From NCBI RefSeq assembly GCF_000516515.1, contig NZ_KI911784.1, positions 2,078,881 to 2,142,880 of the forward strand: a stretch of 64,000 nucleotides of DNA, written 5' to 3'. The notes under the pieces are model-generated. The model did not search any database. It was not told where the DNA came from and saw only the letters and a program-made list of their open reading frames with translations. Every line of letters begins with the position of its first letter. Within the stretch, counting starts at the first letter, position 1. This stretch comes from Chloroflexus sp. Y-396-1. GTDB taxonomy: Bacteria; Chloroflexota; Chloroflexia; Chloroflexales; Chloroflexaceae. A program made the translations under genes and the position numbers. Shown here piece by piece: positions 7,307-44,963 of the stretch.

Positions 7307-7858
7307 TCATTGAACTTGAAAGATGATACGTGCGGCGTCGGGCAAGAAAGGATCGATGAGTTCATACAGACCGGGTAAGACAGCGTTGGCAAAGAAGCGC
7401 AACATGAGTGATGTGCCAATTTGTCCGCCTAGCCATCGTGTAATCGGGTAGTCAATATTGGCAAAACCACGCACAATAAACAGATTCCAGAGCAGTACTG
7501 CCGATAATCCCAGAATCATGCCGCCGATAATGACACCCAATGCTGTACCAACGATGCGGTCTACCATTTCGAGATGGTGTGGCGTATGTACATACCGAAA
7601 ACTATATACACCGACCCATGTCAGCACGATAAAACTGAATAGATGGATGAGGGCAAAGGCAACGTACTGACTGACGAAACGCTGTCCACCCAGTTCACGG
7701 ACGAAGATGTCGGCCAGACTTTGATAGTAGAGGCTGGCTAATACGGTACCGAGGTAGAACGCGAGAATAACAATGATTAGTCGGATCGTGCCCTGAAAGA
7801 ATCCTACGGCCAATGCGCCGAAGAAGAGCACAACAAAAAGGAGATCGATGACGTTCAT
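7307..7858 (-). CDS. CvpA family membrane protein
   Basis: A 183-residue protein with four hydrophobic helices. It begins NVIDLLFVVLFFGALAVGFF, the usual CvpA opening, and contains the loop DRIVGTALGVIIGGMILG near residues 100-118. In other bacteria CvpA is needed for colicin V production and bile-salt tolerance; its exact activity is unknown. A GGGAG ribosome site sits 9 bases before the ATG. mutS2 follows directly, so they probably form a two-gene unit. Confidence 0.85.
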   Translation of the reverse strand: MNVIDLLFVVLFFGALAVGFFQGTIRLIIVILAFYLGTVLASLYYQSLADIFVRELGGQRFVSQYVAFALIHLFSFIVLTWVGVYSFRYVHTPHHLEMVDRIVGTALGVIIGGMILGLSAVLLWNLFIVRGFANIDYPITRWLGGQIGTSLMLRFFANAVLPGLYELIDPFLPDAARIIFQVQ

Positions 7859-9704: not shown

Positions 9705-11243
9705 TTACGCTTCGGGTTGGGCCGGTTTCAACTTACGACCTATAAAGGGCAGGCGGGCAATCAACTTACTCAACGCCTCTTTAATGATTGTCAGATCGTC
9801 GTCAGGTAGGGCACGAAACGCCAACACCAGACCGATATACACGGCTGCACCTAACGGTACGGCCAGGAAGAAGAACGTCGACTCGCGTAGCCACCAGATG
9901 GCAAGCAACATCCCCGCTCCGGCTAGACCGGTGAGTACCCCTACGCGCCAGTTCTGGGCACCGAGCGTTCCTCTTGGCAGCACTCTAATGGCTGCGATCA
10001 AAATTCCCAATTCAGTAATCGTGTAAGCCAGGGCGCCACCTAGTGCACCATTCGCAAATGCCTGATTGGTCCAAGGTACCAGGATAGCATCGAGAGGAAG
10101 CGTTGCAACCGTGGCAGCAATCATAATGATGTTGAGCGCCGCAGTGCGATCGGCTGCAATCAACAACTGGCTTAGAACGGTGTTCAGATAGGTACAGATC
10201 AAGACGATCCCTAACACTGCCAGGACGACGCCGGTGGGGCGAAAGGCTTCACCGTACAGCAATAACGCAACCGGCTCGGCAACCGCAACTAATCCTAGCC
10301 CAATCGGCATGCTTAGCGCCAGCATAATATTAAAAATCGGCCGTGCGGCCATTGCCAGATGATCTTGACCAGCCGCAAAGCGACGGGTCAGCGTAGGGAA
10401 AATCACGGTCCCAATTGCCATCGGAAAGAACATTAATGTTCCGAAAAGATTAATGGCTGTACCATACCAGCCAACCGCTTCAGTAGAGGCGAACATCGCG
10501 ATGAATAAACGGTCAATCTGTTGATAAACCATCAGCGTTAGTGCAGTGACCAGATACTGTTTTGATACATTGAGCATCTGGCCGGCTGCTCCCAGATCAA
10601 TACTCCAGCGTGGTCGATGTTGACGGAAGAGAAAGAAGGCATCACCCACGAAGGCAACCAGCGCCGCCAGCACATTCGCCCATCCGATCCAGATCACATC
10701 GAAACCGGTAAACAGGAGAGCGAGGCTCACAACCGTCAGCACTATTTTGCTCAGAACGGTGACCAACGACACATAATGAACCTGTTCGAGTCCATTGAGG
10801 GTAGCGATGAGGCCGCCACTCAGCACCGAAAAGAGGGTCATCAATCCAATGATCCAGATTAATGCGGTTTGCGTGGGATCGGCATTGACGGCAAACAGGT
10901 CGTAGCCAAACACGGCTAGACAGCCAAGGAGCCAAAGACCGATCCGTACTACCAAACTAGTACCGACTAGTGCACCGGTGCGCTGTGGCTCACGGGCAAC
11001 TGCTTTGGTTAGGTAGGTATCCATACCGAAGGTGATCAATACACCGACAATCATCCAGATGGAGAAGGCAATCGAAAGCTGTCCGATTGCCAGTGGCCCC
11101 AGGATACGCGGTTGGAAAATTGCAACCACGAATGCCATTGCCCATGTCAACAATTGGGCAGCCATCATGGCGCCGGCATTACGCGCTATCCGTGCCCCAC
11201 TAATTGGCGAAGGCGGCGTATTGGTCGAGACCTCGCTAGTCAC
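9705..11243 (-). CDS. Wzx-like polysaccharide flippase
   Basis: A 512-residue protein with about fourteen membrane helices and the pattern of the polysaccharide-transporter (PST/MATE-fold) family: ARNAGAMMAAQLLTWAMAF at the start of helix 1, GxDTYLTKAVAR in the first cytoplasmic loop, and a repeated second half with polymerised-lipid-flipping features. It should move undecaprenyl-PP-linked repeat units across the cytoplasmic membrane. It overlaps the preceding glycosyltransferase by 4 bases, so translation is coupled. It is the last gene of the nine-gene polysaccharide/partner-switch string. The C-terminus is Lys/Pro-rich. Confidence 0.85.
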   Translation of the reverse strand: MTSEVSTNTPPSPISGARIARNAGAMMAAQLLTWAMAFVVAIFQPRILGPLAIGQLSIAFSIWMIVGVLITFGMDTYLTKAVAREPQRTGALVGTSLVVRIGLWLLGCLAVFGYDLFAVNADPTQTALIWIIGLMTLFSVLSGGLIATLNGLEQVHYVSLVTVLSKIVLTVVSLALLFTGFDVIWIGWANVLAALVAFVGDAFFLFRQHRPRWSIDLGAAGQMLNVSKQYLVTALTLMVYQQIDRLFIAMFASTEAVGWYGTAINLFGTLMFFPMAIGTVIFPTLTRRFAAGQDHLAMAARPIFNIMLALSMPIGLGLVAVAEPVALLLYGEAFRPTGVVLAVLGIVLICTYLNTVLSQLLIAADRTAALNIIMIAATVATLPLDAILVPWTNQAFANGALGGALAYTITELGILIAAIRVLPRGTLGAQNWRVGVLTGLAGAGMLLAIWWLRESTFFFLAVPLGAAVYIGLVLAFRALPDDDLTIIKEALSKLIARLPFIGRKLKPAQPEA

Positions 11244-12208
11244 GGTACAACTCCCTTGTGTGATCGATCGGTGTTACTCAGTCGGTATGGTGCGATATAA
11301 CAACACGTTTCCCGATCAAGCTGATAGTCAAGGCTTTTGCGTAAGCCAACAAACGGGTAATAAAGCTGATCAAGACCAAGCAGAACTTTATCGCGGCGAT
11401 GCCATTTGAAGATACCCGAAGCAATCTGGCGTAGTCCCTGACTAAACAACCATTCAGTTAGTATCACAATTCCACCGAGATCGCCGCAGCGCATATATTT
11501 GCCTGCGACTGCGCCAGCACCGATACCGTAAGCACGAAAGCTACGGCGAGCGCTGTGCCAGCTCTGCCAGTGGTGATGGTAAGCAATCGCGTGTGGTGTG
11601 AAGACAATCGTACCTCCGGCCTTCAAGGCGCGATACCCCAAATCACGCTCCTCCCAGGCACCGAGCGGCGCACCAGCACCGATCAGTTCATCAAAACCAC
11701 CGAGCCGCTCAAAGGCTTCACGGCGTGCACCCATATTATGACCATGACCAAATCCTAAATTGAATCGGTTGTGGTGAAATATTCGGCGAGAACCATCACA
11801 GGTGCCTAATACAATTTCATCAGGATTCGGCAAATGTGGCCCCGGCAAGACAGCGCCGAAAGCCAGCCAGATTTGCTCGTTCTGCAACTCTGTGATCAGG
11901 GCACTGATCCAGTTGGCATCAAGGATACAATCATCATTGGTAAACAGAATGTACGGTGCATTGCCCATTGCTGCACCAGCATTGCGGGTTGCCGAGATAC
12001 CGCGTACCGGACGTCGAATGTATCGAATCCGGTCGTCAGTTTCAGCATGAGTTCGTACACATTGCTCGGTCTTGTCGTCTTCACTCTGATCAAGCACCCA
12101 GAGCGTGAAGTGGGGATAAGTATTCTGACGGAGACTGGCGATGGTGGCATCTATAGCCGTACCACGTCCATACGTTGAGATGACAATATCAACTGTTGGC
12201 GTATTCAT
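11240..12208 (-). CDS. GT2 family glycosyltransferase
   Basis: About 322 residues. The GT-A domain opens PTVDIVISTYGRG, with RGISATRNAGA near residue 85 and the metal-binding motif FTNDDC near residue 100. A C-terminal region with one or two amphipathic helices follows. It is expected to add a sugar to a lipid-linked intermediate at the inner face of the membrane. ATG 12208 gives the normal family start and has GGTGG upstream; a start at 12238 is possible. The gene sits 140 bases after the response regulator and overlaps the flippase, whose substrate it probably helps to build. Confidence 0.82.
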   Translation of the reverse strand: MNTPTVDIVISTYGRGTAIDATIASLRQNTYPHFTLWVLDQSEDDKTEQCVRTHAETDDRIRYIRRPVRGISATRNAGAAMGNAPYILFTNDDCILDANWISALITELQNEQIWLAFGAVLPGPHLPNPDEIVLGTCDGSRRIFHHNRFNLGFGHGHNMGARREAFERLGGFDELIGAGAPLGAWEERDLGYRALKAGGTIVFTPHAIAYHHHWQSWHSARRSFRAYGIGAGAVAGKYMRCGDLGGIVILTEWLFSQGLRQIASGIFKWHRRDKVLLGLDQLYYPFVGLRKSLDYQLDRETCCYIAPYRLSNTDRSHKGVVP

Positions 12209-12378
12209 ACATTTGCTGCCCACCTGCTCGGTACCCATATTGACGGAGGCAGTGTACGCCTGGAAGTTAACACTTCGCTGAATGTATGGCTATCTGGAGT
12301 TAACGAGAACGTCACGTGCTGTTTTCTGTCGTTCCAGGTGATAAGTTTCCCAGTCTCACGCCACCAAATATACCGAAG

Positions 12379-12765
12379 CTACGTTCCATGCCGTGAGGAC
12401 TCCTGGTGGAGCAAGCGATCAACTTCGTTGACCAGGTCATCCGAATCGACTGGCTTAGTAAGGAAGGCATTTACCCCAACACCTGCTGCCTTCACCTCGT
12501 CTTGTTCTTTAACGCTACCGGTAATCATTATGATCGGCAAGTGGGTATAACGTTCGTCAGCCCGGATTGCTCGTACCAGCTCAATGCCATCCATACGAGG
12601 CATAGTTAGATCGGTCACAACCAGATCAACAGTATGTGTATCGAGACGGCTTAACGCTTGTTCACCGTCGATGGCGGTAATAACCGTATAGCCGTGTTGT
12701 TCAAGCACAAAACTCATGAGTCGATGCGTAGGTGCATAATCATCGACAATCATAATCGTTGTCAT
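12379..12765 (-). CDS. Single-domain response regulator
   Basis: A 128-residue stand-alone receiver (CheY-like). The acidic pair is D8-D9, the phospho-acceptor D52 is in VVTDLTMPRMDG, the Thr is in MITGS, and the Lys is in FLTKPV. There is no output domain. It starts two bases after the stop of the RsbW-like kinase gene, so it belongs to the same transcript. It could relay a two-component signal to the phosphatase/kinase pair or act on motility or surface machinery. The cognate histidine kinase is not in this gene string. Confidence 0.9.
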   Translation of the reverse strand: MTTIMIVDDYAPTHRLMSFVLEQHGYTVITAIDGEQALSRLDTHTVDLVVTDLTMPRMDGIELVRAIRADERYTHLPIIMITGSVKEQDEVKAAGVGVNAFLTKPVDSDDLVNEVDRLLHQESSRHGT

Positions 12766-12767
12766 AA

Positions 12768-13211
12768 TTATTGACTCCCGAATTTCAGATGCTTCACCAG
12801 GTGCCAGTAGTTTCCATCGGAACGCGCTGTATATGTTACGCGATCCATCAAGTGGCGAATTAAGAAGAGGCCATAGCCGTGTATCTGGGCCTCGCTTAGA
12901 TTTGGTTGTGGCACCAGTTCTGGATCAAACGGTTCACCATTATCGTGTAGCTCAATTTCCAGGCAAGGTGGTTGTGGATGGAACGTAAGGGTTACTTTAA
13001 TCCGGTCTTCATTACGCTGACGATTGCGGTAGGCATGGCTGACAATATTTGTACAGACTTCATGCGCTGCCAATTGGATGTTGTAGACCAGAGTTTCATT
13101 CGGTGCACCTGCCTGCCGTAACAATTCGGCTATCGTTTCACTCAGTAAATGCAGGTAGGCATAGCGGGCCGGCAGATCGAGCCGGATCACTTCACTGTGT
13201 TGCAGGCTCAC
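12768..13211 (-). CDS. RsbW-like serine kinase / anti-sigma-type ATPase
   Basis: A 147-residue GHKL ATPase of the HATPase_c_2 (RsbW/SpoIIAB) type. The N box has E51 and N55 (HEVCTNIVSHAY), followed by the D box D90-N91-G92 and a GYGLFLI lid near 112-118. Family members phosphorylate a serine on a STAS partner and sequester another protein when the STAS partner is phosphorylated. It overlaps the phosphatase gene by 4 bases, which fixes stoichiometry by translational coupling. The likely substrates are the STAS antagonist at 14742-15080 and perhaps the STAS domains of the glycosyltransferase at 16842-18362. Confidence 0.88.
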   Translation of the reverse strand: MSLQHSEVIRLDLPARYAYLHLLSETIAELLRQAGAPNETLVYNIQLAAHEVCTNIVSHAYRNRQRNEDRIKVTLTFHPQPPCLEIELHDNGEPFDPELVPQPNLSEAQIHGYGLFLIRHLMDRVTYTARSDGNYWHLVKHLKFGSQ

Positions 13212-14749
13212 GTTGCGGCTCCTTTGATCACGATAATGGTCTGATCATCGTCTTGTGGATGACCGGCGCTAAACTGATCAATTGCATGAAATAGCCCATC
13301 AGCGATTGTCTGTGCTGATTGTTCGGCCAGGGTGTCTACTACGTGTAATAAACGATCTATCCCAAACATCTCGTCTTCACCATTGCGCGCCTCATGGAAG
13401 CCATCAGTAGCGACGATAAGAAGATCACCTGGCTGCATTGCTAGATGACGGTTTTGAAAATTGTTGACAGGTAAAATACCTAACGCAGTGTTGTCGGCTA
13501 GCAACAAGGTTGGGCTGCCGTTGGCTGGTCGATAGATCACGGGTGCATGGCCGGCGTTGGCATAGACAATTTCACGATTCCTGTCATCGTACATACCAAC
13601 AAAGACCGTTGCAAAGACACCGATCCGTGTGAAGTCGTTGTAAAGGTCCTCGCTCGATTGACGCATCACGGATGCTGGCGTCGGTGACGGCATGAACTGC
13701 GCTTTGCTATGCAGGGCAGTGCGCGTCATCGACATCAGTAATGCTGCCGATACGCCTTTCCCGCTTAGATCACCAATCGTAAAGATAAATGGATGGTTGG
13801 GTGTCTGAATGAAATCAAAAAAATCACCACCAACCTGCAACGCCGGACGTGAGCAGGCGTAGATATCCAATCCTGGGATGACGGGCAAGGTGCGTGGTAA
13901 GAGATCAGTTTGTACCCGTCGTGCCAGATCCATTTCGCTGCGTAACCGGGTCTGCTCGATCATCTCTTGGTAGAGCAAGATGCGTTCGATCTGGGCGCTG
14001 GCATGGTCGGCAATCGCTCGACCCAGTTTCAGTTCTGGTGTACCAAATCCTTCAACCCGATCAAGGATACCCAGACAAGCCATGATCGTGCCACGGACCC
14101 GAATCGGTAACAACAAGAGATTTCTGATTCCCGGCGGCCATCGTATGTCACCCTCTTCTTTGCTAATGATCAGTGGGCGATCTTCCATTTGGAGCTGCCA
14201 GTACAAGCGCCAGATAGTCTCATGACTCAATGGACAATCAGAAGAGTGTACAACCAACGGTTCACTCCCATTTGTGGATATGTATGTAGCAAAAGCCGCC
14301 TTGCCCTTTAGCATTCGTAATGCCTCGTTCACGACTGCTTGCAGGGTCTCGCGGATGGTTACCAGATCACGCATGGCTTGGGTTAAGCGATACAGTGCCA
14401 ACTGCTGATCTTGACTGGTCACCAGATCGGCGGTCATGCATTGCAACTCATATTCGAGCTGCACAATATAGCTGATCAATGCGGCTTCTGCCTGAAGCCG
14501 TTGTCGCGCTGCTTCGTTACGCAAGCCGGTCAGGCGCAACTCGCCAACCACTTCATCGTAACGATAGATGGCAGCCGTTAAATCAGGTGTGAGGAGGCGC
14601 TGTCCTGCCGGCCAGCAGGCCAACGGCCGACCGTGCTCGTAGATGCCGAAGGTCTGCGCACCATGGGCCAGCCAGGCCTCAGCGAGTGCCTGAAAGCGAG
14701 GATATTGTGAGCTTAGCACCGAGACCAGCATAGTTTGTTTCTCAGGCAT
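13208..14749 (-). CDS. SpoIIE/RsbU-type PP2C serine phosphatase with GAF domain
   Basis: A 513-residue soluble protein. The N-terminal region (1-110) is unassigned and ends in a coiled coil. A GAF-like sensor (about 115-260) and a SpoIIE PP2C domain (about 290-510) follow. Metal-binding residues are visible: GGDFFDF (307-313), GDLSGKG (326-332), TDGFHE (448-453) and DDDQT (500-504). The enzyme should remove phosphate from a phosphoserine on a STAS protein. Its start overlaps the STAS gene by 8 bases. The GAF domain is probably the signal input; its ligand is unknown. Confidence 0.92.
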   Translation of the reverse strand: MPEKQTMLVSVLSSQYPRFQALAEAWLAHGAQTFGIYEHGRPLACWPAGQRLLTPDLTAAIYRYDEVVGELRLTGLRNEAARQRLQAEAALISYIVQLEYELQCMTADLVTSQDQQLALYRLTQAMRDLVTIRETLQAVVNEALRMLKGKAAFATYISTNGSEPLVVHSSDCPLSHETIWRLYWQLQMEDRPLIISKEEGDIRWPPGIRNLLLLPIRVRGTIMACLGILDRVEGFGTPELKLGRAIADHASAQIERILLYQEMIEQTRLRSEMDLARRVQTDLLPRTLPVIPGLDIYACSRPALQVGGDFFDFIQTPNHPFIFTIGDLSGKGVSAALLMSMTRTALHSKAQFMPSPTPASVMRQSSEDLYNDFTRIGVFATVFVGMYDDRNREIVYANAGHAPVIYRPANGSPTLLLADNTALGILPVNNFQNRHLAMQPGDLLIVATDGFHEARNGEDEMFGIDRLLHVVDTLAEQSAQTIADGLFHAIDQFSAGHPQDDDQTIIVIKGAAT

Positions 14750-15080
14750 TTAAAACAGCTAAGGCATGATCGGCGTCCACAAAGATGCTGAAGGCTTTGT
14801 CAAGCCGAGTTAATTCAAAAATCATCAAGACCGGACGGCGTAGTCCGCATAGGGCAAATGCGCCCTGGCCTTGTTGACATCGCTTCATCGCCGATACCAG
14901 CGTCGCCAGCGCTGTTGAATCAACAAAGGTGGTTTCTGAAAGATCAACCAGTACCCGTGCACCAGGTGCCGCTGTTGCCTGTTCTAGCCATTGTTGAACG
15001 GCAGGGGCAGTATTGGCGTCGAACCGTCCTTCTATTGCGAGCACAGCCACATTCCCAACTGTTCGTGGCTTCATTTCCAT
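14742..15080 (-). CDS. STAS anti-sigma-factor antagonist (RsbV-like)
   Basis: A 112-residue single STAS domain. The phosphorylatable serine is S55 in TTFVDSTALATLV, with the conserved D54 before it. An ideal ribosome site (AGGAGG, 8 bases before ATG) suggests it is made in larger amounts than its neighbours, as expected of a titratable switch component. It is followed by the phosphatase (8-base overlap) and kinase. It is the canonical shuttle of a partner switch. No sigma factor gene is near. Confidence 0.92.
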   Translation of the reverse strand: MEMKPRTVGNVAVLAIEGRFDANTAPAVQQWLEQATAAPGARVLVDLSETTFVDSTALATLVSAMKRCQQGQGAFALCGLRRPVLMIFELTRLDKAFSIFVDADHALAVLNA

Positions 15081-15133
15081 ATTAAAAACCTCCTCTAGTG
15101 CAAGCAGTGGGTGATCGCTTATGGCAGCTTTCC

Positions 15134-16837
15134 TTATCCGCCGGATGGGGGCGAAAGATCAACGCTCAACGATTGACCGACAGGTTTGTTGTTTTGCCTA
15201 ATCCGGTGTAACCAGGCTAACGGTGTACGTATCAATAGGCTGAGGTCGCTTCGCCACGATCGGGTTGCACTATAGTATACATCGGCAATGACAACGGCAT
15301 CGAGATTGCCAGAGGAATCCTGAATGTACCACAAGCCTGTGACACCGGGGGGAACCTCGTGGCGTCGTTGTTGCCATTCTTCCTGCAAGAGGGCTGCTTC
15401 GTTGGGCGTGAGTGGTTTGACCCCTACGAGTTGTAGATCACCACGCAGTACGCTGAATAACTCTGGCAAACGGTGAAATTCATACGCTTCCAGCCATCTC
15501 CCAAACCACAGGTGGCGTCCGTCAGCGTGGCGTGTGCGCCAATGCCAGAGGGTTAGTGGCCGTAATGTTGTTTGACCGTTCGATAGCAGTATACGCTCGC
15601 CAATTCGTGGTAACCCGATGAGGGGTCGCCCACCACTGGCAATGGTAGCTAGGATTCCGGTGAGTATGAGCAGGGGGCTTAGCAGGATCAACAATACCAG
15701 TGCCCCCATCCGGTTGAAGAGACTAGCAACCCTACTAACACTAGCCGTTACCGCCGATACCCGTCCGATCAAGAACGTATCGACGATGACCGTCTGTTCA
15801 GCAGTGATCGGATCAACGATGACACCAGGGTAGACGATCCGCTGATTGATGTTGACCAGTTGACCAACATACGTGTCGGCCCAGATCGTACTGGCAGTGA
15901 CCGTGGCCTCATCATCGATCATACATCCGGCGCCGATGACCGTGCCCGGTCCCAGTTCGGCATCACGCCCGATCCAGCAGTTATCGCCGATGTACAGCGG
16001 TGGGGCAATCCGAACACTAGGATGGATCGAGTCGTTACGGCCGACCCAAATACCTGGTGCAATTTTACGACCGCTAATTGAAGGGTAGCGTACTGTCTCA
16101 CGTGGGCCTGCGGTGATGGTCGAATCGATGGCGCGATAGGCACTATAGAGGAACACCTGCTGCGCCGCGTAATAATCGGCAAGTGTTGTCAGTGGATTCC
16201 AGTAGCCACTGAAGGTAAAGTTCTGTACCGGGAATTGTTGAGCGATAAGTTGAGGGATCAGGTCGGTAGCAATGCAACAGCGGCTTCGTAGCGGAATCTG
16301 GGCGAGAATTGACGGCTCAACAATGTATGCACCTGTCAATGCTACAACATCGGCTGAGGCTGGTTGCGATATTACTTCTCTAATCCGCCCATCTGTATCA
16401 ACAATCGCATATGGAGTGAGCTGATGCTCATGCGGTTCGTGGGTGATGACGGTCAGTGTTGAACCGTGACGTTGATGATGATCGAGCGCTGCCTCAATCG
16501 AGAGGTCGATGATCGCATTTCCGGGTAATACCAGACATGTTTCCTGAATCAACGGCGCTGCCCAGCGTAGTGCCCCACCATCAGCCCAGGCCTCATTCAA
16601 CGATACGTATTCAATCTCAACCCCCCAACGTTTCCCGCTGCCAAACGTTGCTGTGATGGGTGCAGTCTGTTCGTGTAACGCGACAAGAATGCGCTTAATA
16701 CCGGCACGGGCCAGAATTTCAATCGTGGTTGTCATGACCGGTCGGTCGACAATCGGCAGTAAAACATCGGGCAAGACATCGGTTAATGGTGGTAACCGGC
16801 GATCTTCAGCAGTTGCGATGAGAAAGGCAATGGTCAT
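15134..16837 (-). CDS. Nucleotidyltransferase-like / left-handed beta-helix / sugar-transferase-like fusion, probably catalytically degenerate
   Basis: A 567-residue three-part protein. Residues 1-235 have the sugar-nucleotide pyrophosphorylase fold, but the GxGTRLxPLT signature reads AEDRRLPPLT and the metal-binding GD reads GN (106-107). Residues 255-345 are hexapeptide repeats. Residues 365-540 resemble a bacterial sugar transferase with its membrane segment (about 376-400), yet the catalytic Asp-Glu of DELPQL is His-Arg (H455-R456, HRLPEL) and GPRP is GVKP. Both active sites therefore look lost. It starts 4 bases after the WecB/STAS gene. A structural or regulatory role in the glycan-initiation complex is the likeliest reading (inference). 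Confidence 0.8.
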   Translation of the reverse strand: MTIAFLIATAEDRRLPPLTDVLPDVLLPIVDRPVMTTTIEILARAGIKRILVALHEQTAPITATFGSGKRWGVEIEYVSLNEAWADGGALRWAAPLIQETCLVLPGNAIIDLSIEAALDHHQRHGSTLTVITHEPHEHQLTPYAIVDTDGRIREVISQPASADVVALTGAYIVEPSILAQIPLRSRCCIATDLIPQLIAQQFPVQNFTFSGYWNPLTTLADYYAAQQVFLYSAYRAIDSTITAGPRETVRYPSISGRKIAPGIWVGRNDSIHPSVRIAPPLYIGDNCWIGRDAELGPGTVIGAGCMIDDEATVTASTIWADTYVGQLVNINQRIVYPGVIVDPITAEQTVIVDTFLIGRVSAVTASVSRVASLFNRMGALVLLILLSPLLILTGILATIASGGRPLIGLPRIGERILLSNGQTTLRPLTLWHWRTRHADGRHLWFGRWLEAYEFHRLPELFSVLRGDLQLVGVKPLTPNEAALLQEEWQQRRHEVPPGVTGLWYIQDSSGNLDAVVIADVYYSATRSWRSDLSLLIRTPLAWLHRIRQNNKPVGQSLSVDLSPPSGG

Positions 16838-16841
16838 CGCC

Positions 16842-18362
16842 TCAGTCTCCTTCAGCAGTCACAGGGTTCTTGTGTAGTGGTGCCGTTGTTGCGGCTGTTA
16901 TATCGGGAAAGATCGATAGTACCTGATCGAGACGTACCAACTGGATCGTTCGTAGCACGTCGTGGTTGCAACCGGCAATTCGCAATGAGCTGTTGTGTTC
17001 GCGAGCCAGACGGTCGAGTTTGACCAGAGCAGCCATCCCAGCGCTGGCCATAAATGTCGTTCCGGTGCAGTCGATGACGAGCAGCTTACCCTGTTTGATC
17101 ACCTCGCTCGCCTGAGTCAAAACGGAATCTGCTGTTGCTGCATCGAACAGACGCGGGGCAGGAATGATCGTCCAGCCGTGAATTGTTGTAGACGACGTGG
17201 TGGAGACCGATGTTGACTGCTCGATACGTTGGGTGATCGCGGTGAGATCGGGGAATCGTTCAAAGAACCGATCTAGTTTCAGTAAATCAAGGAGGCGCAA
17301 AATCGGTTCTTGCACGTTGAGCAAGAAGATGTCGCCACCATTCGAGCGTGCGCGCTTGGCTAATCCTACCAGCGCACCTAGTGCTGAACTGTCGAGGAAC
17401 TGGGTCATACTCAGGTCAAGTATCACATACTGATGAGTAGCCAGTAGACGATACGCTTCTTGGGTAAATGGTTCGAGATTGCTGACATCAAGCCGATTCC
17501 CAACGGTCAACACCGGCCAGGGGAATGGAGGTGGAGGTGGTACAGGCGCGACGTCTGCCGATTCCGACGTAGACGTGATGGGAACCATGCTCAGCGCACT
17601 TCCTCGTTGCATTGCCCACCACTGGCGGAAGAAGAAATAGCCGAAATACACAAAATCATGGACGTATCGTTTCCACAAACGACGCGGTTCCTGAATCAGG
17701 CGATACACCCATTCCAAACCACTACGTTGCATCCAGAGCGGCGCCCGTTTGGTGACACCTACAATCATATCGAATGTACCGCCAACCCCAATCGCGATCG
17801 GTACACGCAACTCATGGGCGTACATCCGAATCCATTTCTCTTGTTTGGGGTTACCGAACGCTACCAGCAAAATGTCAGGTTTGGCTGCCTTAACCGTTTC
17901 TACCACCGAGCGATCCATTTCCAGTACCGAGCTAGGTGGTGGTGATAACACACCGGCAACGCGCAGACCCGGGTAACGTTCTTGTAAAATCGCCGCAGCT
18001 TTCGCCGCAACACCCTCGCGGGCGCCGAGAAAGAAGATGGAATAGCCACGCTGGGCGGCTCGTTCGGCCAGCGCCGGTACCATATCGGCGCCGGTTACGC
18101 GACCGGGCAGTGGCCCGCCCAATAGTCGTGATGCCCAGACCAACGGCATACCATCGGCAGTCGCCATATCGGCCTCTTGTAAAATACGACGTAGCTCTGG
18201 ATCATGCAGCGCGTTCACGACAAAATCGGCATTCACCGTCGCAATTTGATGGAGGCGACCGGTAGCTCGTCCTTCGGCAATAAACTCATCACACCGATCC
18301 AGCGCTTCGGCCATCGTTAGGTTGTCAATTGGTACACCTAGTATCACCAGAAGTTTGCGCAT
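16842..18362 (-). CDS. WecB/TagA/CpsF glycosyltransferase fused to two STAS domains
   Basis: A protein of 506 residues. Residues 1-250 are a complete GT26 (WecB/TagA) enzyme: TVNADF (42-47), the catalytic-aspartate region ADGMP (69-73), GNPKQEKW (170-177) and the C-terminal membrane-attachment appendage (214-248). GT26 enzymes add the second sugar (often ManNAc or a hexuronic acid) to an undecaprenyl-PP-sugar. A Pro-rich linker (about 262-283) leads to STAS-1 (about 284-382), with a full phospho-site D324-S325-S326. STAS-2 (about 396-492) keeps S440, but the flanking residues are Ala. The gene lies 12 bases after the phosphoglycosyl transferase and in the same string as a STAS kinase and phosphatase. 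Direct phospho-control of this enzyme is proposed. Confidence 0.88.
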   Translation of the reverse strand: MRKLLVILGVPIDNLTMAEALDRCDEFIAEGRATGRLHQIATVNADFVVNALHDPELRRILQEADMATADGMPLVWASRLLGGPLPGRVTGADMVPALAERAAQRGYSIFFLGAREGVAAKAAAILQERYPGLRVAGVLSPPPSSVLEMDRSVVETVKAAKPDILLVAFGNPKQEKWIRMYAHELRVPIAIGVGGTFDMIVGVTKRAPLWMQRSGLEWVYRLIQEPRRLWKRYVHDFVYFGYFFFRQWWAMQRGSALSMVPITSTSESADVAPVPPPPPFPWPVLTVGNRLDVSNLEPFTQEAYRLLATHQYVILDLSMTQFLDSSALGALVGLAKRARSNGGDIFLLNVQEPILRLLDLLKLDRFFERFPDLTAITQRIEQSTSVSTTSSTTIHGWTIIPAPRLFDAATADSVLTQASEVIKQGKLLVIDCTGTTFMASAGMAALVKLDRLAREHNSSLRIAGCNHDVLRTIQLVRLDQVLSIFPDITAATTAPLHKNPVTAEGD

Positions 18363-18374
18363 GATGGTATTCTC

Positions 18375-19118
18375 TCAGTAGGCGCCACGACCAAGGAGTA
18401 CTGCCGGAATGGTACGTAACAAAATTTCAATATCCTTCCAGATACTTTGTTCAGCGATATACTGCAAATCAAGTTCAACCCAGCGCTTAAAATCAAGATC
18501 ACTGCGCCCGGATACCTGTTGTAAGCCGGTGATACCGGGAATAGCATGGAGCCGTCCGATCTGCTCGTAAGTGTATTTTGCTACCTCGCTGGGCAAGGCC
18601 GGGCGTGGACCCACCAGGCTCATCTCACCTTTCAATACGTTAAAGAGCTGAGGGAGTTCATCGATACTAAGCTTGCGAATAACCCGGCCAACCCGTGTAA
18701 CACGGGGATCGCGTTTCATCTTAAAGACCGGTCCATCGGCTTCATTTTGAGCTTGTAGTTCACGCAGCCGTTGTTCAGCATCGACGTACATCGAGCGGAA
18801 TTTGTAGCAATAAAAATGTTCACCGTCCTTACCAACCCGTACCTGCTTAAAGATGACCGGCCCCGGCGATTCGAGTTTGATGAGGATTGCGGTGATCAGC
18901 ATAATCGGCGCAGTTAAAATGATAGCAATAATTGCCACTGTAACATCTAACACGCGCTTGAGGCTCGACATCAGCTTGGTACGTATGACCCACCACGATA
19001 AGGCTAGACGTAGGCGTTGATTGGCACGGGTACGCTGAAAGCGGCGTTCGGCAAAGATAGCAACCATGCGTTGACTTTTCACATCAGGATTCACTTGAGT
19101 CGATTTCGGAGCACTCAT
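18375..19118 (-). CDS. Polyprenyl-phosphate glycosyl-1-phosphate transferase (WcaJ/RfbP type)
   Basis: A 247-residue monotopic phosphoglycosyl transferase. It has a basic N-terminal arm, one re-entrant hydrophobic helix (about 57-80), KFRSM (106-110), the catalytic dyad D153-E154 in SIDELPQL, and SLVGPRP followed by PGITGLQQVSGR. It should transfer a sugar-1-phosphate from a UDP-sugar to undecaprenyl phosphate, the first committed step of polysaccharide synthesis. ATG 19118 has AGGTGAT just upstream; the frame open to 19160 is not needed. This is the first gene of the string that ends with the flippase. Confidence 0.92.
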   Translation of the reverse strand: MSAPKSTQVNPDVKSQRMVAIFAERRFQRTRANQRLRLALSWWVIRTKLMSSLKRVLDVTVAIIAIILTAPIMLITAILIKLESPGPVIFKQVRVGKDGEHFYCYKFRSMYVDAEQRLRELQAQNEADGPVFKMKRDPRVTRVGRVIRKLSIDELPQLFNVLKGEMSLVGPRPALPSEVAKYTYEQIGRLHAIPGITGLQQVSGRSDLDFKRWVELDLQYIAEQSIWKDIEILLRTIPAVLLGRGAY

Positions 19119-19289
19119 GGAAATCACCTCTCTGAGTCTACATTCACTAACACTATACACTATCGTGCGAACAAAATCCTTACAGTGGGCTGAAAAAGCG
19201 TGAAGAATATGTCACTCCCGAAATCGTCCTCACAGAGATAAACGCAGGTGTATCCATTATTATATGCACAGACATACGATGGGTAGTTG

Positions 19290-19498: not shown

Positions 19499-19630
19499 GC
19501 GCACCCAGCGCACCCGGCGTACCCAGCGTACCCGGCGCACCTAGCGCACCTAGCGCACCTGGCGTACCCAGCGCACCCGGCGCACCCGGCGTACCCGGCG
19601 CATCCGGCGTACCCAGCGCACCCAGCGCAC
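19499..19630. repeat. 9-bp minisatellite, about 14.7 copies
   Basis: Tandem units with consensus GCG(C/T)ACCC(A/G), 14 full and one partial. The period is a multiple of three, so all frames stay open. The minus strand reads as Gly-X-Y triplets (GAP, GTP, GAL) and the plus strand as Ala-His/Tyr-Pro. No credible start, ribosome site or secretion signal supports a gene. Confidence 0.85.
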
Positions 19631-19710
19631 ATAGGTAAGGTACTGACGAAGATTCTCGCCCTTGTCTTTCCGTCTGTTCGCGATACAGCAAAGACGCTGG
19701 AAACTTCTTA

Positions 19711-23983: not shown

Positions 23984-24041
23984 GTAGATAGAAAAGGTAG
24001 CACGTCATGTGCTGACATTTCAGTGCAAAGAGGTTTATGGC

Positions 24042-26112: not shown

Positions 26113-26147
26113 CCGGTAAGCAAGTTGCGTAACCGGTGGAAACTTCT

Positions 26148-41249: not shown

Positions 41250-41278
41250 ATTGTATCCGAGGATGTTGATAACGTCAT
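41250..41278 (-). promoter_or_regulatory. Promoter of nadC
   Basis: Minus strand -35 ATGACG (41273-41278), 17-bp spacer, -10 TACAAT (41250-41255), about 40 bases before the nadC ATG. Confidence 0.45.
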
Positions 41279-41282
41279 GCAC

Positions 41283-41312
41283 TTGTCTGCCGATGATGCG
41301 AAACTGTATTAT
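41283..41312 (+). promoter_or_regulatory. Promoter of the hybrid sensor gene
   Basis: -35 TTGTCT (41283-41288), 18-bp spacer, -10 TATTAT (41307-41312). Transcription would begin near 41319, after the ATG at 41277 and before the ATG at 41349, which supports the later start. Confidence 0.5.
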
Positions 41313-41348
41313 CATAGAACATATCGGCACGTAGTATTCAAGAAGCCT

Positions 41349-44300
41349 ATGCAAAAAACTCGCGCAATGGTGCATCACTCGCGTCGCCCAACTATCGGTG
41401 TTATCGCCGGTTGGCAATTTTACGGTACTGCCTTGACGATGAGCTACCTGAGCCCGATCTATCTCGGTATTCGTCAGGCAGCGCACGACATGGGTTGTAA
41501 CTTGCTACTGGCCTGCGGAATGGGGCCATCGGCACAAATTGACGACCCACCACAACCGGCCTGGTTTGCGGTTAGCGATGGCACTAATTTTGTCCCGGTT
41601 GGGCCATGGAATACCCATGGGCTGATCGTTATCAACCCTCTCCAACGGCCAGAACGTTCGCAGATGGTGCAGGCGATCCGGGCGGCTGGTCATCCGGTCA
41701 TCTTTGTCGGTTCGGGGGAAGTGGGGTCAACAATTGTTGCCGATAATACTGCCGGTATTCAACAGGCTCTGCACCATCTTATTGAGCATGGTCATCGGCA
41801 GATCGCCTTTATTGCCGGTAGCCAACACGATCTGGAGGGTGACACAGGGGATCGACTCCGCGCTTTTCAGGAGGGAATGGCCCGATTTGGTATCGAAGTT
41901 GATCCACGCCTGATCGTTTTTGGGAATCATGTGTTCGCTGGTGGCTACAGTGCCGTTAAACGGTTACTTGCTACTCATATGCCGTTTACGGCTGTTCTGG
42001 CGAGTAATGATGAATCGGCGCTCGGTGCGATGGCCGCTCTCCGCGACCATGGGAGGCGGGTACCGGAGGATGTTGCCATCATCGGTTTTGATGATCGACC
42101 TGAAGCACTGTTGGCCGAGCCGGCATTGACTTCGGTACAGATACCATTGTTCAAGCTGGGCTATCGAGCGCTGGAACTTATGGTACGTCATATTCGCGAC
42201 CGCGAACCTTTGCCAGCATTGATACAGGTACCAACCCGGCTGGTCATTCGTGAGTCGTGCGGGTGTAGTCAGAATGCAGTGTTGGCCGATACCCTGGAAA
42301 TGATCACCCTCCAGGTTGATGCACCGGCGTATGCCGACGTGCAGGCGTCGGTCATTCTTTCAATGAGTGAGCTGCTCGGTCAGCGGTTGCATGGCTTTAC
42401 TCGTGAGGAGATCACGCATTTCTGTCAGCAGTTGCTCGAATCATTTCTTACAGGTGTTCAGTCTGCCGATCCTGACCAGTTTCGCTCAACGCTTGCCCGG
42501 CTGCTGAAACAGGTGGCCTTAGCCGGTGATGATGCTCACGACTGGCAGTTAGCGATTTCGTTTCTGCGCGATGTATGCCCACGGTTGCTCGATGCTTCCC
42601 TTCGTGATAGGGCGCAGAAGCTCCTCGACGAAGCCCGCATTACGATTAGTGCGGCAATGCGTTTTCAACACTGGCATTACCGTTACGGCCAACAACAAAT
42701 CAGCAACTGGGTTGGTCGTCTTACGGCTCGTTTACTGACTGCTCTGGCCGAGAGCGATATTTACGACATCCTGGCACGGCATTTGCCTGAATTACAGATA
42801 CCATTGCTGTGGATCGGCTTTTTTGAATCTGAACGCGATGATCCGGTGGCGTGGTGTCGGTTACGGGCAATCACGGTGCCCCAACAGCCGGTCATCCGTA
42901 TTCGAAGTCGTACTTTTCCTCCAGCACAATGGCTGGACTCCAAAGAGCCATTCCGCCTGATTCTGATACCACTGATTGGGGTTGATGGTGAGACTGGGTT
43001 CGTTGTGTTTGACTGTGCACAGCTTGATCTCTACGGCACTATTGTGCAGCAGATCAGTGCTGCCCTAAATGCAGCACATCTCCATCGTACAGCTACCGAA
43101 GGGCGCCGCCTGGCCGAGGAGGCGAATCGCCTCAAGAGCCGTTTTCTTTCAATGGTAAGCCATGAACTGCAAACACCCCTCAATCTGATTGTCGGGATGA
43201 GTGACCTGCTCTTACGTGAGAGTGCTGAAGGTGTTCAGCAGTTACCGATGCAAGTTCGTCACGATCTTAAGCGGATTCATGCCAACGCCCGTCATCTCAG
43301 TCGGTTGATTAGTGATGTTCTTGATCTGACCAGCAGTGATGCCGGTCAGTTACGGCTGGCTTATGAAGTTGTTGATGTCGGGGCGGTCATGCGTGCCGTG
43401 GCCGAAATTGGTCAGCAAATGGCCGCCGATAAGCATCTCGTTTGGCACGATGCGATTCCATCTGAAGGGCCATGGGTATGGGGTGATCGCACGCGCTTGC
43501 ATCAGATTGCGCTGAATCTGGTGGTCAATGCGATTAAATTCACGAGTCAGGGGAGTGTTAGTCTTTCAGTGACGACCGAAGCCGATGCCGTGACCATTAC
43601 GGTGCGTGACACAGGACTTGGTCTTTCGGCAGCGGAGCAGGCTCATATTTTTGATGAGTTTCAGCGTTCAGAGCGCAGTATTGAGCGTGGCTACAGCGGT
43701 ATCGGCTTGGGATTAGCAATCTGTAAACGACTGGTTGCGCTCCACGGTGGAACCATCGGCGTGCATTCGAGCGGTATCGAAGGTGAAGGATCAACATTTT
43801 TCTTCCGTCTTCCAACAATTGCCCGACCTACTGGGAAAATACGTCGTCAACCGTCGTCTGTCTCAACACGACCTCATGTCTTGTTGCTTTCCAGGCAGAA
43901 CGATGAGCGCCTTCAACACTACCTGGAAAAACGTGGTTTTATTGTTCGTTTCTTCTCTGTTGAAGAAAGTGCGGCTTGGTTAAGCGAACTTTCGGCACGA
44001 AATTACAGTGCTGTTGTTCTCAATGCTACCGAAGGTGATCAGGTATGGTGGCAAACGGTTCGCGTACTCAAGGCGAATCCTGCCACACGCAATCTGCCGT
44101 TGCTATGCTATGGAATGAACGAACACCATGGTGCAATCATTGAATTGGATTATCTCACCAAGCCGATTGAGTTGGCCGATTTAACGCGCGTGCTTGATCA
44201 GTACTGGCTCAATACCGATCCTGCGGCTACCACTCATACCGTGCTCGTGGTTGACGATGATCCTGATACGCGCGAACTCCATGCCCGCATCGTGCAGGCG

Positions 44301-44963
44301 CACGGGGCACTCCATCGGGTATTGTGTGCGCGTTCCGGACGTGAAGCCCTGAACATCCTTCACCAACAAGCGGTTCATCTGGTGTTGCTGGATTTGATGA
44401 TGCCGGAGATGGATGGCTTTACCTTGTTGCAGATGATGCGCGAACATCCACAGTTGCGCGAGATTCCGGTTATTGTCATTACCGGACGCACCCTCACCGA
44501 GGAAGATATGGCGCGTCTCAGTCAAGGGGTTACCACTGTGCTCAGTAAAGGTATGTTCAGCGCGAGTGAAACCCTCGCCCATTTACAGATCGCCCTCGAA
44601 CGGCGGCGTCGTCTAAGCGATCAGGCGCAAATCCTGGTCCGGAAAGCAATGGCCTATATCCATAGCTATTATGCCCATCCGATCACCCGCCAGGATATTG
44701 CGCACTACGTCGGGATGAGTGAAGACTATCTGACCCACTGTTTTCGGCAGGAACTGGGTACAACGCCGGTCGAATATCTCAACCGGTACCGGGTCCTGCA
44801 GGCACGTCGGCTGCTCGTTGAGAGTGATAAAAGTATTACCAACATCGCCCTGGAAGTAGGTTTTTCTAGCAGTAGCTATTTCAGTCGGGTGTTCCGCAAG
44901 GAGGTTGGGCTTTCACCCGAAGAGTATCGACGGCTAGGAGGCAATGGAACTGTGCAACTGTGA
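41349..44963 (+). CDS. Soluble hybrid sensor: LacI-type ligand domain, histidine kinase, two receivers, AraC output
   Basis: A 1204-residue protein without membrane helices. A periplasmic-binding-protein-like sensor of LacI type comes first (about 15-310; RPTIGVIAGWQFYG, LLASNDESALGAMAAL, IIGFDDRPEA). A helical linker is followed by a HisKA domain with SMVSHELQTPLN and a HATPase with LNLVVNAIKFT and GIGLGLAIC. Receiver 1 has its phospho-Asp replaced (VVLNATEG). Receiver 2 is canonical (VDDDPD, LLDLMMPEMDG). The C-terminal AraC helix-turn-helix pair (about 1105-1200) contains SEDYLTHCFRQELG and GFSSSSYFSRVFRKEVG. It combines sensing, phosphotransfer and DNA binding in one chain. The ligand is probably a sugar; the targets are unknown. 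Confidence 0.88.
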   Translation: MQKTRAMVHHSRRPTIGVIAGWQFYGTALTMSYLSPIYLGIRQAAHDMGCNLLLACGMGPSAQIDDPPQPAWFAVSDGTNFVPVGPWNTHGLIVINPLQRPERSQMVQAIRAAGHPVIFVGSGEVGSTIVADNTAGIQQALHHLIEHGHRQIAFIAGSQHDLEGDTGDRLRAFQEGMARFGIEVDPRLIVFGNHVFAGGYSAVKRLLATHMPFTAVLASNDESALGAMAALRDHGRRVPEDVAIIGFDDRPEALLAEPALTSVQIPLFKLGYRALELMVRHIRDREPLPALIQVPTRLVIRESCGCSQNAVLADTLEMITLQVDAPAYADVQASVILSMSELLGQRLHGFTREEITHFCQQLLESFLTGVQSADPDQFRSTLARLLKQVALAGDDAHDWQLAISFLRDVCPRLLDASLRDRAQKLLDEARITISAAMRFQHWHYRYGQQQISNWVGRLTARLLTALAESDIYDILARHLPELQIPLLWIGFFESERDDPVAWCRLRAITVPQQPVIRIRSRTFPPAQWLDSKEPFRLILIPLIGVDGETGFVVFDCAQLDLYGTIVQQISAALNAAHLHRTATEGRRLAEEANRLKSRFLSMVSHELQTPLNLIVGMSDLLLRESAEGVQQLPMQVRHDLKRIHANARHLSRLISDVLDLTSSDAGQLRLAYEVVDVGAVMRAVAEIGQQMAADKHLVWHDAIPSEGPWVWGDRTRLHQIALNLVVNAIKFTSQGSVSLSVTTEADAVTITVRDTGLGLSAAEQAHIFDEFQRSERSIERGYSGIGLGLAICKRLVALHGGTIGVHSSGIEGEGSTFFFRLPTIARPTGKIRRQPSSVSTRPHVLLLSRQNDERLQHYLEKRGFIVRFFSVEESAAWLSELSARNYSAVVLNATEGDQVWWQTVRVLKANPATRNLPLLCYGMNEHHGAIIELDYLTKPIELADLTRVLDQYWLNTDPAATTHTVLVVDDDPDTRELHARIVQAHGALHRVLCARSGREALNILHQQAVHLVLLDLMMPEMDGFTLLQMMREHPQLREIPVIVITGRTLTEEDMARLSQGVTTVLSKGMFSASETLAHLQIALERRRRLSDQAQILVRKAMAYIHSYYAHPITRQDIAHYVGMSEDYLTHCFRQELGTTPVEYLNRYRVLQARRLLVESDKSITNIALEVGFSSSSYFSRVFRKEVGLSPEEYRRLGGNGTVQL

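Follow-up and report, generated by a model that had tools for sequence, protein, structure and literature searches.

The question raised by a gene string of Chloroflexus sp. Y-396-1 is whether a glycosyltransferase can be the target of a partner-switching module encoded beside it. The string lies at 12379-19160 in a stretch of 64,000 nucleotides (contig NZ_KI911784.1, positions 2,078,881 to 2,142,880), which is called the window throughout and belongs to a genome of 4.89 Mb in a single contig. According to the listing of open reading frames and to Pfam all its genes are on the minus strand and code for a phosphoglycosyl transferase (PGT), a WecG/TagA-family glycosyltransferase to which two STAS domains (STAS-A and STAS-B) are fused, a pseudoenzyme, a free STAS protein, a SpoIIE phosphatase, an RsbW-like ATPase, and a receiver; a further glycosyltransferase and a flippase follow (Table 1). 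This order and these domains had been put forward in an earlier note made from the letters of the window, and they agree with the open reading frames, the gaps, and the Pfam matches. Comparison of sequences across genomes indicates that the string is probably a partner-switching module which has the glycosyltransferase as its target and reaches it through STAS-A, and suggests that sugar-chain building is switched here directly by protein phosphorylation.

A WecG/TagA enzyme with two unequal STAS domains

By its fold and by the active-site residues checked the enzyme is a member of glycosyltransferase family 26 (GT26; WecG/TagA/CpsF). Alignment to the TagA structure 7mpk equates Thr42, Asn44, Asp70, Arg88, and Gln174 of the window enzyme with Thr37, Asn39, Asp65, Arg83, and Gln167 of TagA, and Glu175, Arg221, Arg228, and Arg232 with Glu168, Arg214, Arg221, and Arg224, the TagA residues used being those named in an excerpt of PMC6493773. 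These residues, including the arginines of the C-terminal appendage, are nearly invariant among the 48 fusion rows collected (42 from Chloroflexota, three from Verrucomicrobiota, and three from Burkholderiales), the equivalents of Gln167 and Glu168 being replaced in all three Burkholderiales proteins. Active-site residues and appendage are thus what the enzyme has in common with TagA and WecG, whereas TagA has no STAS domains and the window enzyme has two, which sit directly behind the C-terminal appendage of the TagA fold. A structure model built from 11 sequences (mean predicted local distance difference test, pLDDT, 76) yielded a TagA domain, a low-confidence linker, and two STAS domains, with a predicted template modelling score of 0.49 and an unreliable relative placement of the domains. 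The top Foldseek matches of the model were TagA/TarA, followed by RsbV and SpoIIAA. Between residues 250 and 284 the 48 rows have 23-87 amino acids. A plasmid search with the whole fusion gave 282 matching records, none of which covered more than 80% of the query.

Table 1. Features of the gene string and of the STAS-carrying glycosyltransferase, with positions in the window.
Feature	Position	Strand	Evidence
PGT, small monotopic type, PF02397	18375-19118	-	Pfam 2.8e-69; catalytic Asp-Glu present
WecG/TagA-family glycosyltransferase with two C-terminal STAS domains, 506 residues	16842-18362	-	Pfam; TagA 7mpk 2e-46; model
WecG/TagA catalytic part, residues 1-250	17613-18362	-	alignment to 7mpk; conservation
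Linker, residues 254-279	17526-17603	-	pLDDT under 50
STAS-A, residues 284-376	17235-17513	-	SpoIIAA and RsbV relatives
Ser325 (STAS-A), candidate phosphorylation site after Asp324	17388-17390	-	aligned with SpoIIAA DS motif
STAS-B, residues 396-490, Ala439-Ser440 instead of Asp-Ser	16893-17177	-	
NTP_transferase-LbH-Bac_transf fusion (pseudoenzyme)	15134-16837	-	Pfam; motif survey
Free STAS, RsbV/SpoIIAA type, Asp54-Ser55	14742-15080	-	Pfam; PDB relatives
GAF-SpoIIE phosphatase, RsbU type	13208-14749	-	Pfam 8.4e-43; metal-binding motifs present
RsbW/SpoIIAB-like ATPase (HATPase_c_2), presumed serine kinase	12768-13211	-	Pfam; B. subtilis RsbW 6m36 2.2e-7
Single-domain response-regulator receiver	12379-12765	-	Pfam 2.3e-29
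GT2 glycosyltransferase, probably later sugar	11240-12238	-	Pfam
Wzx-type flippase	9705-11243	-	Pfam

Ser325 of STAS-A aligns with the serine which is phosphorylated in SpoIIAA and RsbV, Ser58 in SpoIIAA, and the Asp-Ser pair is present in 48/48 rows from three phyla. STAS-B, unlike STAS-A, has no Asp at this place in any of the 42 Chloroflexota rows, which read Ala-Ser (26), Ser-Ser (nine), Thr-Ser (six), or Ser-Gln (one), and hence STAS-A alone resembles an ordinary substrate of such a kinase. In the three Verrucomicrobiota rows STAS-B also carries Asp-Ser, and the three Burkholderiales rows are devoid of a second STAS. Invariant among 41 Chloroflexota rows (L094 was dropped for its broken frame) are F322, D324, S325, G329, G343, and F367 in STAS-A, and D407 and D431 in STAS-B. 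Ser325 and Ser440 are both located at helix starts in the model. Ser325 and, in the free STAS protein, Ser55 had been proposed in the earlier note as sites of phosphorylation; the alignment to SpoIIAA and RsbV speaks for the former, and the latter stands in the same Asp-Ser motif.

Occurrence of the fusion and its linkage to the switch genes

Surveys of the family, the class, and the phylum ruled out that the fusion is unique to one strain. It was found in 26 of the 41 genomes of the family, among them one with the gene split over two contigs (G003), one with a broken frame (G020), and one with two copies (G004). When the whole tandem STAS part was searched at E <1e-40 in 400 genomes of the phylum, the only match outside the family was a 506-residue frame in G324. 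An Anaerolineae query retrieved the fusion from 15 of 396 genomes of that class, three metagenome-assembled genomes (L129, L130, L131) among the matches listed being part of these 15. The tandem fusion occurs in three of 288 Verrucomicrobiota genomes, and a fusion with a single STAS in two of 200 genomes of the family to which one Comamonadaceae metagenome-assembled genome belongs and in one further Burkholderiales genome (L135/L242); the Anaerolineae, Verrucomicrobiota, and Comamonadaceae counts include the genomes which supplied the queries. Independent origins of the fusion were not established, as a single origin gave p values of 0.135 (all) and 0.075 (Chloroflexota and Verrucomicrobiota) in the approximately unbiased test.

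From the PGT through the flippase the genes of the window are spaced by 12, 4, 53, -8, -4, 2, 140 (before the GT2 gene), and -4 bases. As promoter- and terminator-like motifs between 9500 and 20200 were no commoner than in shuffled sequences, it is only this spacing that points to co-transcription of the string. The PGT frame was taken to start with the ATG at 19118, an in-frame GTG being found further out at 19160. In other genomes gene order was read by searching the proteins of the window, and then profiles built from their relatives, against stretches around the loci. Of the 42 Chloroflexota regions, L093 and L235 contain no more than fragments of the fusion and were excluded, leaving 40 for the linkage count, which also leaves out the window and L129 (G625), a locus with the full order. 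The order PGT, fusion, pseudoenzyme, STAS, SpoIIE, and RsbW, often with a receiver, is kept in two classes of Chloroflexota, which rules out a chance neighbourhood. A PGT gene is located upstream of the fusion in 32/40 loci and the pseudoenzyme gene downstream in 35/40. For 32 loci 5 kb or more of downstream sequence is available, and in 27 of them it contains STAS, SpoIIE, and RsbW genes on the same strand. The other five comprise one with RsbW only (L092) and four with none of the three; RsbW only was also seen at L090, where less than 5 kb is available. L090 and L092 belong to a single genus (G039, G040), in which the kinase gene stands beside the fusion and STAS, SpoIIE, and receiver genes stand elsewhere (L105, L106), with no RsbW gene between them. 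Beyond the Chloroflexota, the Verrucomicrobiota locus L133 has STAS, HATPase-SpoIIE, receiver, and fusion, L244 has the same four in a different order, and about 14 kb of a Burkholderiales genome (L242) contain PGT, a pseudo-PGT protein, receiver-SpoIIE-HATPase, the fusion, and a free STAS.

The control consisted of loci with a plain WecG paralog. STAS, SpoIIE, and RsbW genes occurred together in none of 22 such loci (20 hand-chosen stretches, L119, and L125), searched with profiles of window relatives which could miss a distant SpoIIE, as against the 27/32 fusion loci (Fisher p 2e-10, kinship ignored); a SpoIIE match 6 kb away was seen at L119. Switch genes are common in these genomes; their ordered string is associated with the fusion. 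Within the family a SpoIIE match at 1e-90 or better was obtained in 26/26 genomes with the fusion versus 10/15 without it (Fisher p 0.004), the match of G002 belonging to a paralogous module (L114). A survey of genomes for linkage of the fusion to Rsb genes, which the earlier note had suggested, has thus come out in its favour, with exceptions. At 12 plain WecG loci, L258 among them, one or two HATPase genes and a STAS gene are found 2-5 kb away; at L258, a locus of the window genome, a carboxylase-like gene intervenes, so that these genes do not form one operon there.

A number of observations weigh against the glycosyltransferase as target of the switch. The four Chloroflexota loci without switch genes belong to three Chloroploca-type genomes (L088, L089, L091), in which the rest of the string stays joined elsewhere (L102, L103, and in part L104), and to one metagenome-assembled genome (L230). 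The third Verrucomicrobiota fusion (L245) stops at a contig edge, the Burkholderiales fusion L142 has only a free STAS beside it on a short contig, and no Rsb gene was found in the stretch read around another Burkholderiales fusion (L243). STAS and HATPase genes occur within about 5 kb in 12/22 plain WecG loci, the genome of the window (G000) is rich in such genes with its 32 STAS matches, and the p-values given above overstate the case because the rows are related. Four genomes (G012, G024, G026, G027) keep STAS, SpoIIE, RsbW, and receiver with neither the fusion nor a full-length match to the pseudoenzyme, which means that the module serves, or is able to serve, another output. Finally, STAS-B has kept its Ser in 41/42 Chloroflexota rows despite the loss of Asp, and a conserved Ser at this STAS position can be structural.

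In G005 pseudoenzyme and module are on a contig which ends before the expected position of the fusion. In G012, a member of the same genus, the switch module is seemingly at the same place as in the window (L099) and the polysaccharide genes of the window were not found around it; by eye its flanks resemble those of the window, with a major facilitator superfamily transporter, a gene like the one at 7307 of the window, and then MutS2, which was identified by Pfam in the window.

Some of these observations would fit fused STAS domains which serve as a scaffold only: they would bind one another, the pseudoenzyme, or the free STAS, would gather the initiation enzymes, and would not be substrates of the kinase, the diffusible output being the free STAS, as has been proposed for SypA. 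The missing Asp of STAS-B in 42/42 Chloroflexota rows, the four genomes in which the kinase module persists without the fusion, and a paralogous module with two free STAS genes and no match to the window's glycosyltransferases in the stretches read (L109-L116) are in line with such a role. It is nevertheless unlikely, given the full Asp-Ser of STAS-A in every row, which sets it apart from STAS-B of the same Chloroflexota proteins, and given that the kinase alone accompanies the fusion in G039 and G040. The paralogous module, found at L109-L116 and L121-L123, consists of STAS, SpoIIE, RsbW, a second free STAS, and often a receiver; no match to the window's glycosyltransferases was found in any of these stretches, and its STAS pairs have Asp-Ser, with one Asp-Thr (L116).

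The switch proteins, the receiver, and the pseudoenzyme

The proteins that would operate on STAS-A have the residues expected of them. Asp-Ser is present in the free STAS in 45/45 rows scoring above 110 bits, the metal-binding motifs of SpoIIE in the window protein and nearly all of 44 rows, and the Glu and Asn of the N box in 42/42 rows of the RsbW-like kinase. A STAS with Asp-Ser, an ATPase with N, G1, and G2 boxes, and the metal-binding Asp of SpoIIE/PP2C are what characterises an RsbUVW-type module, and all were found. The Asp-Ser STAS, the SpoIIE-type phosphatase, and the RsbW-type kinase are shared with RsbU-RsbV-RsbW and SpoIIE-SpoIIAA-SpoIIAB of Bacillus, from which the window differs by the lack of a nearby sigma-70 match and by the extra STAS pair fused to a glycosyltransferase. 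The nearest sigma-70 region 2 match is more than 470 kb away in the window genome, the loci of the other genomes not having been searched, and the string was therefore filed as a partner-switching module and not as a sigma-factor Rsb system.

The classical role of RsbW/SpoIIAB-type kinases is to hold sigma factors. An ordinary switch of this type, co-transcribed with polysaccharide genes by coincidence, in which an unlinked sigma factor is bound by RsbW and the fused STAS is no more than a further sink of kinase, would agree with this role, with the 13 sigma-70 region 2 matches of the window genome, and with the abundance of STAS matches there. It appears quite improbable in view of the distance to the nearest of these matches and of a linkage to the glycosyltransferase that two classes have kept. 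The earlier note had proposed that the kinase encoded nearby has the fused STAS as a partner. For STAS-A this is favoured by the conserved operon, by the occurrence in other phyla, by the Asp-Ser motif, by the lack of a sigma-70 match nearby, and by the kinase gene alone beside the fusion in G039/G040; as an ordinary substrate STAS-B had to be given up.

The receiver, too, might be the main control, acting on the PGT like EpsW in Myxococcus and leaving a secondary part to the STAS genes. Where the full string is present, its last gene in most loci is that of a single-domain receiver, and EpsW activates the PGT EpsZ according to an excerpt of PMC12802240. In the same excerpt small monotopic PGTs are described to act as monomers, so that the EpsZ mechanism may not carry over to the window. 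No same-strand receiver was found in the stretches of L080 (which ends about 1 kb further along), L083, L224, L228, and L236 despite their STAS, SpoIIE, and RsbW genes, and the STAS fusion would be left unexplained, which makes the receiver a very improbable main control.

The pseudoenzyme combines a nucleotidyltransferase-like part, a left-handed beta-helix, and a PGT-like part in which His455-Arg456 replaces the Asp-Glu dyad. It was classed as such because the dyad is present in 0/59 rows of this fusion (47 distinct loci, 12 loci having been fetched twice) versus 62/62 rows of true PGTs. The usual signature loop of nucleotidyltransferases is GGxGTR. This loop is missing from the pseudoenzyme rows, the sequence of L108 being cut before it, and the transferase called degenerate in the earlier note is thus degenerate in both its nucleotidyltransferase and its PGT part. 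A heterodimer of pseudo-PGT and PGT was considered and is weakened by the reported monomeric state of small monotopic PGTs. Relatives without the dyad were seen near STAS genes in Verrucomicrobiota and beta-proteobacteria (L165, L199, L192, L193, L142). In Proteobacteria and Myxococcota (L143, L146, L149, L151, L154, L204, L137) PGT, WecG, and weak hexapeptide/pseudo-PGT matches occur near a free STAS, with a PAS-SpoIIE-HATPase protein in addition at L204.

On the plus strand the string is adjoined by further polysaccharide genes: those at 24009 and 25184 code for weak, below-cut-off relatives of chain-length and tyrosine-kinase proteins, and that at 26136 for a Wzy_C protein. At 19499-19634, upstream of the PGT gene, a 9-base unit (GCGCACCCA) is repeated in tandem in 14.7 copies. 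Elsewhere in the window 41277-44963 codes for a protein of 1228 amino acids made up of a LacI-type sugar-binding domain, a histidine kinase, a receiver, and an AraC-type DNA-binding domain, and a frame of 176 amino acids at 32302-32832 matches glycosyl hydrolase family 35 over no more than about 40 positions and is perhaps a remnant.

A possible switch in early polysaccharide assembly

From the computed domains, residues, gene order, linkage, and lack of a nearby sigma-70 match we infer a contact of kinase and STAS, a phosphorylation, its sign, and an effect on activity. The genes would make up the initiating part of an exopolysaccharide pathway and would carry a partner-switching control of their own. 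The PGT is presumed to start the lipid-linked unit, and the WecG/TagA enzyme, judging from the families, probably adds the second sugar to this lipid-linked acceptor. The RsbW-like kinase would bind and probably phosphorylate Ser325 in STAS-A, the free STAS would compete with STAS-A for the same kinase, and the SpoIIE phosphatase would reset the serines in response to an input at its GAF domain. The likeliest physical effect would be on the adjoining C-terminal appendage, which in TagA is needed for activity and membrane binding: the enzyme would stay inactive and soluble while the kinase is docked and could reach the membrane once the kinase has left. RsbW-type kinases are dimers, so that one docked dimer could keep two enzymes away from the membrane. 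By analogy with SypA it may be guessed that unphosphorylated STAS favours polysaccharide synthesis. STAS-B, which has no Asp, is probably a fixed surface for docking or dimerisation, and the pseudoenzyme probably a scaffold.

In the SiaABCD system of Pseudomonas aeruginosa SiaA is the phosphatase and SiaB the kinase, and the window phosphatase is a distant, below-cut-off match to SiaA. The small switch protein SiaC directly activates a diguanylate cyclase of the biofilm pathway (excerpt of PMC8457831); in contrast to the window case, a cyclase is activated here and the switch protein is not part of it. SypA of the syp locus of Vibrio fischeri resembles the window proteins as a STAS protein inside a polysaccharide locus and acts below transcription, with a target called unknown in 2023 (excerpt of PMC10120452). 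Its partner SypE unites kinase and phosphatase in one protein (excerpt of PMC8256260), whereas these are separate genes in the window, which therefore works like this system and is not a member of it; the excerpts of both papers describe no STAS fused to an enzyme for SypA/SypE. HmpU/HmpV/HmpW of Nostoc punctiforme form a partner switch in a motility and polysaccharide locus (PMC8256260), but the STAS is free and has been suggested to act on an unknown target, and a fusion is not mentioned in the excerpts of PMC10120452 and PMC8256260. The protein all4160 of Anabaena is a STAS-glycosyltransferase in a polysaccharide context, described in a review (excerpt of PMC8256260); its STAS is N-terminal, in contrast to the C-terminal pair of the window enzyme. 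The earlier note had known of no described case of the fusion, and this can no longer be said of STAS-glycosyltransferases in general, all4160 being on record; the literature searched yielded no WecG/TagA-STAS-STAS protein within an Rsb operon. In open-licence literature the combination of 'WecG' and 'STAS domain' gave no match, and among the matches listed no WecG-STAS fusion was named in titles or abstract openings. As far as described in the excerpts cited, precedents for a glycosyltransferase as target are SypA, which acts below transcription, SiaC, which activates an enzyme, and EpsW, which activates a PGT.

A natural fusion that is conserved beside its likely kinase and phosphatase names a class of target for the STAS proteins found in several polysaccharide loci. 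A widespread and so far undescribed principle can be put forward tentatively, with rather more doubt than confidence, in which a glycosyltransferase takes the place of the sigma factor as output of a partner switch: a tethered STAS, bound and phosphorylated by a kinase, would switch the second-sugar enzyme between a soluble and a membrane-active state within an initiation complex organised by a pseudoenzyme, and the same contact would be the missing target of SypA-type proteins. The lipid carrier of polysaccharide assembly is shared with cell-wall synthesis. If true, partner switching would extend from transcription to the early assembly of polysaccharides.

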